From: Synechococcus sp. RedBA-s
GTDB taxonomy: Bacteria > Cyanobacteriota > Cyanobacteriia > PCC-6307 > Cyanobiaceae
DNA length: 64,000 bases
Direction: 5' to 3'
NCBI RefSeq assembly: GCF_024345495.1
Contig: NZ_JAGQBF010000013.1
Location: 1-64,000 of the forward strand
Shown here piece by piece: positions 36,197-39,146 of this stretch. Made by a program: the position numbers and the translations under genes. Every line of letters starts with the position of its first letter. Position 1 is the first letter of the stretch. Under the pieces are notes generated by a model that made no database searches, was not told the origin of the DNA, and saw only the letters and a list, made by a program, of their open reading frames with translations.

Positions 36197-37322
36197 TCCG
36201 GCACTTTGCGGAGATAACGCCTTCAGGGCACTCAGCGCGATCGCCGAGCGCTTCGATCTCGGTGGCCCGATCAGCGGCATCGACCCCCTGGGCAACGGCA
36301 ACGTCAACGACACCTATCTGGTGCGGCTGGGGGAGCTGGAGCGCCCTGCCGTGGTGCTGCAACGGGTCAACACGGTGGTGTTCACGGACCCCGAGGCGGT
36401 GATGGCCAACCTGGTGGCCTTCAGTGAGCACGTGGCCCGGCGACTGCTGGAGCCCCCCAGGGAGCTGGCCGGGCGCCGCTGGGAGGTGCCTCGGGTGTTT
36501 CTTGCCTGCGCCGATGGTCTCCCCTGGGTGTGGGAAGGCTCCAGCTTCTGGCGGGCCCTGGGTTTTGTGGATCGGGCCCATTCGTTGGAGCGGATCGGCC
36601 ACAGCGGCCATGCCCGTGAAATCGGCTTCGGCCTGGGCATGTTCCACCAACTGATCAGTGATCTGCCCGTGGAGAACCTGGCCGACACCCTGGAGGGGTT
36701 CCATGTCACCCCCACCTATCTGCGACAGTTCGATCAGGTGCTCGGCCGGCTCGGAGCCTCCACTGACCCCGAACTCAGCGACTGCCTGGCCTTCGTGGAG
36801 CAGCGCCGCGGCCTGGTGCCGGTGCTGGAGCAGGCCAGCGCCGCGGGACTCCTGCACCAGCGGCCGATCCACGGTGATCCGAAGATCAACAACGTCATGC
36901 TTGATCTGGAGGGCGACCAGGCCGTGGCCCTCATCGATCTCGACACGGTCAAACCCGGGCTGATTCATTACGACATCGGCGATTGCCTGCGCTCCGCCTG
37001 CAATCCCCTGGGGGAAGACACCGAGGACTGGCGGCAGGTGCAGTTTGATCTGGGGCTGTGCGAGGCCTTGCTCGGGGGCTACGGCAGCGTGGCCCGCTCC
37101 TTCCTCACCCCCGCCGATTACGACCACATCGTTGTGGCCATCCAGGTGATCAGCTTCGAGCTGGGGTTGCGCTTCCTGACCGATCATCTCGCCGGTGATG
37201 TCTACTTCAAGACCCGCTACAGGGGGCACAACCTGCTGCGGGCCAGGGTTCAGTTTCAGCTCACCAGGAGCATCGAGGCGCAGCACGCGGCCATCGAGGC
37301 CGTCGTGGCGGCGATTCGATGA
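36189..37322 (+). CDS. Aminoglycoside-phosphotransferase-fold small-molecule kinase (NahK-like)
   Basis: The 377-residue protein has the protein-kinase-like APH fold. The N-lobe reads DPLGNGNVNDTYLVR and VVLQRVNTVVFTDPEAVM. The catalytic Brenner motif is IHGDPKINNVMLD (about residues 234-246) and the metal-binding loop is ALIDLDTVKPG. The NVNDTY and VLQRVNxxVF features match N-acetylhexosamine 1-kinase-like proteins, so a sugar substrate is likely, but this is inference. It overlaps the next gene by 4 bp and the previous by 8 bp, forming a three-gene unit. Confidence 0.85.
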   Translation: MSDPALCGDNAFRALSAIAERFDLGGPISGIDPLGNGNVNDTYLVRLGELERPAVVLQRVNTVVFTDPEAVMANLVAFSEHVARRLLEPPRELAGRRWEVPRVFLACADGLPWVWEGSSFWRALGFVDRAHSLERIGHSGHAREIGFGLGMFHQLISDLPVENLADTLEGFHVTPTYLRQFDQVLGRLGASTDPELSDCLAFVEQRRGLVPVLEQASAAGLLHQRPIHGDPKINNVMLDLEGDQAVALIDLDTVKPGLIHYDIGDCLRSACNPLGEDTEDWRQVQFDLGLCEALLGGYGSVARSFLTPADYDHIVVAIQVISFELGLRFLTDHLAGDVYFKTRYRGHNLLRARVQFQLTRSIEAQHAAIEAVVAAIR

Positions 37323-37948
37323 AGGCACCCAGCTCGGATTGGCAGGGGTTTGTTCTGCACCGCTTCGAGTCCGAGGACGCTCGGCGGGGTCAGCTCACGC
37401 CCACAGCGTTCGATGCTGCTGCACCCACGGCTCCAGTGACTCCTGCAGTGGCCGGAGCCGGCCTGGAGCTGAGCGGAGCGATCAGGCGTCGGGCGGGGAC
37501 CCTGGAGCTGCACCTGAGCCTCGGTGGTGATCTCGCCTCGGTGGTGCTGGCCGATCCCTCCTTCCGGCGAGAACGCCGTGATGATCTCTGGCGCAGCACC
37601 TGTTTCGAGCTTTTCCTTGCCGCCGAAGGGCAGCCGCCCTACTGGGAAGTGAACCTTTCAGCCGCCGGCCACTGGAACGTCTACCGCTTCAGCGGCTATC
37701 GCCAGGGGATGGAGATCGAGCCCTCGCTGCAGGCCTTGCCCTTCGCGCTCAGGCTCCTGAGCGGATCCCTTGAGCTGGAACTGGTTTTGCCTCTACCGGA
37801 CGACCTTCACCCCCCCTCTTCACCCCTCGAAGCTGGGGTCTGCGCGGTGATCGAGCAGCGCCAGGGGCTACTCAGCTACTGGGCCGTGACCCATCCCGGC
37901 CCAGTGGCCGATTTCCACCGGCGAGACGGACTGGCGCTGCACCTGTGA
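37319..37948 (+). CDS. DOMON-like / CBM9-like domain protein
   Basis: The 209-residue protein has no signal peptide. The beta-sandwich signature is DDLWRSTCFELFLAAEGQPP followed by YWEVNLSAAGHWNVYRFSGYRQGM, which is the DOMON-like (CBM9-like) type found in cyanobacteria and proteobacteria. The C-terminal YWAVTHPGPVADFHRRDGLAL is also typical. The family may bind carbohydrate or haem; function is unknown. Coupling to the sugar-kinase-like gene by an ATGA overlap makes a carbohydrate role slightly more likely (inference). Confidence 0.84.
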   Translation: MKAPSSDWQGFVLHRFESEDARRGQLTPTAFDAAAPTAPVTPAVAGAGLELSGAIRRRAGTLELHLSLGGDLASVVLADPSFRRERRDDLWRSTCFELFLAAEGQPPYWEVNLSAAGHWNVYRFSGYRQGMEIEPSLQALPFALRLLSGSLELELVLPLPDDLHPPSSPLEAGVCAVIEQRQGLLSYWAVTHPGPVADFHRRDGLALHL

Positions 37949-38270
37949 GCTGGCGGGTGGAAGAGCCCAGAGTGAACCACCACCCCAAGCTCCTGCCCGA
38001 AAGCATCGTCATCGTGACATGCCGATCCGTACGTAGTCTGGCATAGGGGGTGAGCCTGTCATCTGACTTCAAACGCCGATCCGCTTTGATCACCAGCATT
38101 GATCACCAATTCGAATCTCTGGTTTGAATCTTTGACCAGAATCTCCGCTGGAAAACTTCAGCGTGAGTCTTCAACATGAATCTTCGGCATAAATCTTGAG
38201 TGGGAATGGCTGTTCTTCATCTTTGCTGATTGCTGGCCTGCCGTGGAGTCCAGGCTGACTCCGCTGTCGC
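37949..38270. other. Non-coding convergent gap, A+T-richer than its surroundings
   Basis: This 322-bp gap lies between the 3' ends of the DOMON-like gene and the Nif11-like gene. I see no gene in either strand. Its right half is a degenerate 13-bp tandem repeat (separate entry). The left part (to about 38060) shows no clear hairpin with a T run. The local base composition drops toward half G+C, unlike the rest of the window. Confidence 0.8.
38087..38229. repeat. Degenerate 13-bp tandem repeat, about 11 units
   Basis: Units start every 13 bp from 38087: TGATCACCAGCAT, TGATCACCAATTC, GAATCTCTGGTTT, GAATCTTTGACCA, GAATCTCCGCTGG, AAAACTTCAGCGT, GAGTCTTCAACAT, GAATCTTCGGCAT, AAATCTTGAGTGG, GAATGGCTGTTCT, TCATCTTTGCTGA. 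The seven units from 38113 to 38203 are best, with consensus GAATCTTCGGCAT and the GAATCTY heptamer most constant. A 13-bp period is neither codon-sized nor one helical turn. The array is non-coding as far as I can see and lies just past the 3' end of the Nif11-like gene. Confidence 0.88.
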
Positions 38271-38486
38271 TCAGTTGTATTCGCCGGGCATGTCCTGCTT
38301 GGTGATCGTCACCCTGCCGATGCGCTTGCCGGAGGCCCGCAGCAGTTCGTCGCCGGAGACATCGAAGCCCAGGGAGGTGGCGATCCTGGCCACGTCATCG
38401 GCGGTGGAGGAACCCAGCACCTGACGCCTGAGTTCCCCATCGTCCTGAACCCTGGCGAGAAAGGCCCTGAGTTGCTCCTGGGACAT
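38271..38486 (-). CDS. Nif11-like peptide without a visible modification core
   Basis: The 71-residue protein has the Nif11 domain: SQEQLRAFLARVQDDGELRR, then VARIATSLGFDVSGDELL. Nif11-type leaders guide RiPP maturation in picocyanobacteria and normally end in a Gly-Gly cleavage site before a Cys/Ser/Thr core. Here there is no Gly-Gly and no cysteine. The tail is GKRIGRVTITKQDMPGEYN. No modification enzyme or peptidase-ABC transporter is nearby. I chose the ATG giving MSQEQ, the usual Nif11 start. It lies between a 13-bp repeat array and a hydroxylase pseudogene. Confidence 0.83.
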   Translation of the reverse strand: MSQEQLRAFLARVQDDGELRRQVLGSSTADDVARIATSLGFDVSGDELLRASGKRIGRVTITKQDMPGEYN

Positions 38487-38542
38487 GGCGGGCGGGCCGA
38501 TCGTGGTGGTCCCCAGCATGGCTCCTGCCGGGGCCGCCGGTC

Positions 38543-38877
38543 TCACTCCCCCCACTGGCGCAGCAGGTTGGTGTAGCTGCGGCTGATCAGATCAAACACC
38601 TCATCCTTGCCGTCGCGCCTGAAGATCGCCCGCCGGGCCGTGTCGAGCTCGAACAGCAGCTCGCGCTGGTCGGCCCGGCGCACCCGGCTCTGGATCCAGC
38701 CCACCGGCCACCAGCCGCAGCACCAGCTCGCCGCCGCTGTAGGCGTCTGGATTACTGAGAAACACGGTGAAGGAGAGGTCGGAGCGGCCGCCGGCCATGA
38801 AGGCATTGTCGACATAGCTGCCGTAGCCCTCGCCGCTGCCACTGCGGCTGGAGCAGGGGTTCGAGGAGGAAGCGCAT
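38543..38877 (-). pseudogene. Degraded PKHD-type hydroxylase (Fe(II)/2-oxoglutarate dioxygenase)
   Basis: Fragments of one hydroxylase lie in two frames. GYGSYVDNAFMAGGRSDLSF and TVFLSNPDAYSGGELVL are in one frame. VGWIQSRVRRADQRELLFEL and DTARR through FDLISRSYTNLLRQWGE are in another (38543-38704). Between them the central part, including the second iron-ligand histidine of the family, is missing, and one extra base shifts the frame near 38705. Near 38855 another single-base shift separates MRFLLEPLL from SRSGSGEGYG. The first iron ligand His-x-Asp is YVD, so the His is lost. PKHD hydroxylases are normally about 220 residues; this remnant could encode only about 110. Confidence 0.85.
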
Positions 38878-38919
38878 GGCGAATGGTGAGCAATGGCTCG
38901 GATTGCTTCGCTTTCGCCC

Positions 38920-39146
38920 ATGAACCGCTCCAGCATCGCTTTAATGCTGGCCACGGCTGGCTTGGCTGCGGGTGTGGTTGGCTGCGGTCAGAGCGAGGCG
39001 CCCAAGCCCAGCTCGCCGGCGATGGAAAAGCCGGCGAGCTGGGCAGCCCCGGCGCTGAGCCCTCCAGCAAGCCGGAGAAGCCGGGGAATCACGACGGTAT
39101 GAAGCAGGAGGAAGGGGGAGAAGGTGGAGAGGGCGGCGAAGGCTGA
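38920..39146 (+). pseudogene. Small lipoprotein gene with a probable frameshift
   Basis: From the ATG at 38920 the product reads MNRSSIALMLATAGLAAGVV then GCGQSEAPKPSSPAMEKPAS, a type II signal peptide with lipobox VVGC, and ends after 60 residues at 39102. In the next frame the sequence continues as GAEPSSKPEKPGNHDGMKQ and EEGGEGGEGGEG to a TGA at 39146. That is the Gly-Glu tail I associate with small picocyanobacterial lipoproteins of this kind. A one-base indel between about 39030 and 39060 would join the two. A functional truncated lipoprotein is the alternative reading. Confidence 0.6.

Follow-up and report, generated by a model that had tools for sequence, protein, structure and literature searches.

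A tandem array of short, degenerate 13-bp units occupies the spacer between a Nif11-like leader peptide gene and an uncharacterised gene of Synechococcus sp. RedBA-s, raising the question of what this array is and whether it acts on anything nearby. The array lies in a 64,000-nt stretch of DNA (the window) taken from a 2.7-Mb genome (G000), and nine congeneric species were compared at the locus, which comprises the following features:

37319–37948, plus strand: gene for an uncharacterised protein of 209 aa, in convergent orientation to the RNA (open reading frame; synteny in congeners)
37959–38028, minus strand: predicted 70-nt structured RNA, unannotated, with a GGA/UCC stem enclosing three hairpins (comparative alignment and covariation; no Rfam match)
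38030–38086, no strand: linker between RNA and array, holding the predicted promoter (89.5% identical in the sister genome G008)
38035–38040, minus strand: −10-like hexamer CAGACT (CATGAT, CATACT or AAAGAT in relatives, mostly CATGAT; 30-locus alignment)
38087–38112, no strand: two TGATCACCANNNN units at the array edge nearer the RNA (from sequence; 26 of 26 positions identical in G008)
38113–38229, no strand: nine degenerate 13-bp units with core RAATCTY, the last two (38204 and 38217) weak (from sequence and comparison with G008)
38271–38489, minus strand: Nif11-like leader peptide gene starting with ATG, same strand as the RNA and upstream of it (PF07862, E 7e-15; TIGR03798)

The two domain matches corroborate the Nif11 neighbour named in an earlier, sequence-only reading of this DNA, and the 209-aa protein had no match in Pfam or NCBIfam. 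Searching Rfam with the region and 13 related loci gave no match for the RNA or the array, and no description of either was found in the literature. On the minus strand, 38543–39070 encodes in one frame a PKHD-type hydroxylase C-terminal domain (PF18331), and 38601–38954 is open in another frame; this seems to be a hydroxylase gene that has shifted frame and decayed.

Structure and periodicity of the array

The sequence-only reading had described eleven units repeating every 13 bp at 38087–38229. The lag-13 identity of this stretch was 0.538, with values of 0.50 and 0.49 at lags 26 and 39. Dinucleotide shuffles of the array gave a mean of 0.251 (sd 0.041), with none of 2000 reaching 0.538 at any lag between 5 and 44, and 100 Markov simulations of 64 kb contained zero 130-bp stretches with that value at any lag between 5 and 40. 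Because neither control ever reached the observed identity, the 13-bp periodicity is real, and it is also present in G008. It is the top signal in the window once lags divisible by 3 are set aside. The array is A+T-richer than its surroundings, as had been noted, with a GC content of 40–45% versus 60–70% on either side.

Taken in 13-bp steps from 38087, units 1–4 read TGATCACCAGCAT, TGATCACCAATTC, GAATCTCTGGTTT and GAATCTTTGACCA, units 5–8 read GAATCTCCGCTGG, AAAACTTCAGCGT, GAGTCTTCAACAT and GAATCTTCGGCAT, and units 9–11 read AAATCTTGAGTGG, GAATGGCTGTTCT and TCATCTTTGCTGA. The count of eleven therefore holds for the period but not for a single kind of unit, since units 1 and 2 (38087 and 38100) are of a distinct type (TGATCACCANNNN, TGATCACC-type) and units 10 and 11 (38204 and 38217) fit the repeat poorly. 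What recurs is RAATCTY rather than the longer GAATCTTCGGCAT that seven units had been said to share, which is found exactly at 38178 only. Tandem Repeats Finder, a check of the kind proposed earlier, recovered 38156–38197 only (3.2 copies, score 49), corresponding to the three most similar units, and left the rest of the array unreported. Conservation between units is focused on seven neighbouring columns (permutation p 0.006). The array thus consists of head-to-tail units of equal length beyond chance expectation, in a second assembly too, as a degenerate minisatellite does. No open reading frame of at least 40 aa runs across it on either strand, and the nearest one, on the minus strand, stops overlapping the array at 38099. 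An eroded coding repeat was rejected, in agreement with the earlier reading, as no frame of that length is open across the array and relatives other than G008 lack the array.

Distribution and decay of the array among congeners

The order 209-aa gene, spacer and nif11 gene was syntenic in 9/9 congeneric genomes, and the conserved RNA accompanied this gene pair in all nine, whereas the array was present in G000 and G008 only. G008 is an independently assembled genome (locus L101) matched to the metagenome-assembled genome of Cyanobium sp. CZS48M. The comparison of sister intervals that had been suggested thus shows an array shared by two genomes and missing from seven other congeners. In those seven, the spacer from the RNA to nif11 was shorter (77–156 bp) and without a 13-bp period; two of them showed weak local periodicity at 17 or 18 bp. 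The pattern RAATCTYN6RAATCTY had no second site in the nine congeneric genomes.

The number of units is equal in G000 and G008, and orthologous units are 90% identical while paralogous units are ~58% identical. By these two observations, the array decayed before the two genomes split and has undergone no turnover or homogenisation since, and with equal unit numbers and units that are not homogenised it does not behave as an active variable-number tandem repeat. At 88% identity, the GAATCT units form the fastest-diverging local segment. The other noncoding segments are more alike (linker 89.5%, right-hand spacer 95%, RNA element 97.3%), and so are the coding ones (209-aa gene 94%, nif11 97.7%). 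Within the units, the AATCT core (columns 2–6) changed at 1/45 sites between the two genomes and the other columns at 13/72 (Fisher p 0.009, or 0.016 under an alternative gap placement), a test that is not circular because the columns were picked by between-unit conservation, and that draws on small counts from two genomes. The two TGATCACC units were unchanged in G008 (26/26).

A candidate RNA gene beside the array

A search with the spacer identified ~70–80 bp beside the 209-aa gene that were 93–96% identical in more distant congeners, where the 209-aa protein itself was just 65–78% identical in 7/8 congeners. This element, ~58 bp from the array, was present in 34 of the 251 family genomes searched, once in each. 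Its minus strand folds far better than its plus strand (alifold −56 vs −38; z −7.8 vs −4.6), and a plus-strand reading was rejected on that ground. The predicted structure has 27 base pairs, with 98.6% of 642 cells able to pair, and comprises one hairpin with a conserved KUCACG loop, one with a mostly UUCG loop and one of 14 bp with an invariant GGGUGGUGGUUCA. Double-sided changes were found at 10 pairs versus 5.5 in shuffles, as expected of a structured non-coding RNA, and the covariation score was 0.310 versus 0.201 in shuffles (0/500); four of five structure measures were reached by none of 500 shuffles and the fifth by 8. A small-protein reading, checked by eye in the alignment, was rejected because 8 loci carry a frame-shifting deletion of one base and in-frame stops interrupt L100, L104 and L054. 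These comparisons predict a strongly conserved structured RNA gene, a candidate at 37959–38028. The sequence-only reading had passed over this element.

At E ≤ 0.01, a covariance model recovered the RNA from 39 of 300 family genomes, including at least two weak matches; strong matches were confined to six genera of the family, and in a 291-genome sample of the class family members only were matched. The loci that bear the RNA carry the names Cyanobium, Vulcanococcus, Synechococcus WH 5701 and relatives. The core pattern was absent from viral contigs and gave 31 stretches in genome contigs, among which three Pseudomonas matches, one from Streptomyces and one from Acidimicrobiales were put down to chance, the rest of the RNA being missing. 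Nearly all carriers have a single strong copy. Variants spanning 87 bases, with a ~17-nt insertion, were seen in G213, G231 and G253, the last of which has two copies.

Aligning 30 loci without reference to promoters revealed a hexamer whose second-position A and last T were invariant in 30/30, other upstream bases being variable, and whose last base lies 7 positions before an invariant first G, taken as +1. Hexamer and G fit a sigma-70 −10 element and start site, placing the predicted start at 38028 and the array at about −59 to −201; no −35 box was recognised upstream of the RNA. Outside this genus, the RNA comes after murF (L085, L100 and L054) or aroB (L098), or it lies beside an apparent relative of the 209-aa gene, judged by C-terminal sequence (L087), or a gene of the AmpH or class C beta-lactamase kind (L095). 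Because its surroundings change while its sequence stays, the RNA behaves as a free-standing gene would, not as the leader of one operon. In being short, intergenic, conserved and structured, the candidate resembles the cyanobacterial small RNAs Yfr1 and Yfr2 (PMC2190773, PMC6778093). These two are described in PMC6778093 as almost universal in cyanobacteria, unlike our candidate, which matches no Rfam family and scores strongly in six genera of one family only.

Arrays of 13-bp units across the family

A search across 251 genomes for three RAATCTY at 13-bp steps returned mostly scattered, chance-like matches, and a backward control likewise yielded many. True intergenic 13-bp arrays were found in G131 (about six units) and G031 (about five); the former, L147 on contig C33, covers reverse-complement positions 2025–2115 with units near AAATCCTTGAATC. 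In genus g5, one and the same gap holds GAATCKCTGAACT arrays in three species (L155, L156 and L154, around 1435–1565), which differ in copy number. The likeness of GAATCTCTGAACT to GAATCTCTGACCT in G008, noticed after the core had been selected, is suggestive. Other family loci also hold short arrays whose period is not divisible by 3, with units of 22 bp (L085), 16 bp (L093) and 14 bp (L100). In L085, from a Cyanobium metagenome-assembled genome, three copies of the 22-bp repeat lie directly 3′ of the RNA (2195–2262).

Origin and possible function of the array

Degenerate bacterial minisatellites and other intergenic tandem repeats have short head-to-tail units and are lineage-specific and decayed. 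The array resembles them in each of these respects, and differs from an active variable-number repeat in having the same copy number in both genomes. Among the options raised by the sequence-only reading, a minisatellite fits best, as the array is decayed, is confined to one lineage and has had no turnover of units since the sisters separated. The short tandemly repeated repetitive (STRR) heptamers of heterocystous cyanobacteria are intergenic 7-bp units present at many sites; our array is likewise an intergenic short tandem repeat of a cyanobacterium, but its unit is 13 bp long, its sequence is another and it has one site in this genome. Plasmid iterons and the 13-mers of oriC are short direct repeats in A+T-richer DNA, as is the array, but none of the flanking genes examined is a replication gene. 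An iteron-like remnant or plasmid origin, another of the earlier options, found no support: the neighbours (an APH-family gene, the 209-aa protein, nif11 and aroB) are ordinary chromosomal genes, with no Rep gene or mobile replicon beside the array and no match to phage or plasmid records.

A DNA-binding protein that recognises RAATCTY (RAGATTY on the other strand) at 13-bp spacing might tune the conserved RNA in this lineage, which we consider unlikely. The sites would lie ~59–201 bp upstream of the predicted RNA start, beyond a predicted promoter in which a −35 box was not recognised, and the core columns are kept both between units (p 0.006) and between species (p 0.009, in two genomes only), a weak hint of constraint that also speaks against an inert array. 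However, the RNA and its −10-like hexamer persist without the array in 7/9 congeners, 13 bp does not amount to a whole number of helical turns and the entire array diverges faster than its flanks; there is also no sign of a regulon, because the double unit has a single site in nine genomes. The protein-binding option of the sequence-only reading thus gains from the sparing of AATCT (1/45 vs 13/72) and loses from array-less congeners that keep the RNA. That the units are lineage-specific putative binding sites by which a new regulator of the conserved RNA was recruited, through recent gain of a promoter array in two sister species, strikes us as quite a long shot. Equally doubtful is a dispersed picocyanobacterial family of 13-bp repeats, with an ancestral unit near GAATCTCTGAACT, that spreads or recurs in intergenic gaps: the GAATCKCTGAACT arrays that three genus g5 species share in one intergenic gap at different copy numbers, the G008 unit near GAATCTCTGACCT (12/13 equal) and the units near AAATCCTTGAATC in G131 are consistent with it, but arrays found through a RAATCTY search have core likeness built in, their sites and flanks are unrelated, and only three independent sites stand above the backward-pattern control once orthologous and A+T-rich chance matches are set aside. 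It is very improbable that the array works as transcribed RNA, for instance as the 3′ untranslated region of nif11 or as an extension of the small RNA at its 5′ end. The array does sit between two minus-strand features and its minus strand folds slightly better than shuffles (z −1.7), but the predicted RNA start lies past it, and conserved folding was rejected, since the predicted folds of G000 and G008 differ and most G000 hairpins are lost in G008.

Taking these observations together, we favour the view that the array is probably an old, decayed and inert intergenic minisatellite, more likely inert than a regulator. In the ancestor shared by the window species and its sister G008, a 13-bp unit would have been tandemly multiplied in the A+T-rich spacer between the nif11-like gene and the small RNA gene; the units would later have drifted by point mutation, with no gain or loss, and are most probably functionless. 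We infer slippage and absence of function for an array whose periodicity, confinement to 2/9 congeners, equal unit number and decay pattern were observed.

The array alone is a modest curiosity, and its worth is as a pointer to an unannotated RNA family of picocyanobacteria that is absent from Rfam and has strong covariation and a predicted start site. The candidate RNA, rather than the array, is the finding worth following, and it can be tested directly in cultured strains.
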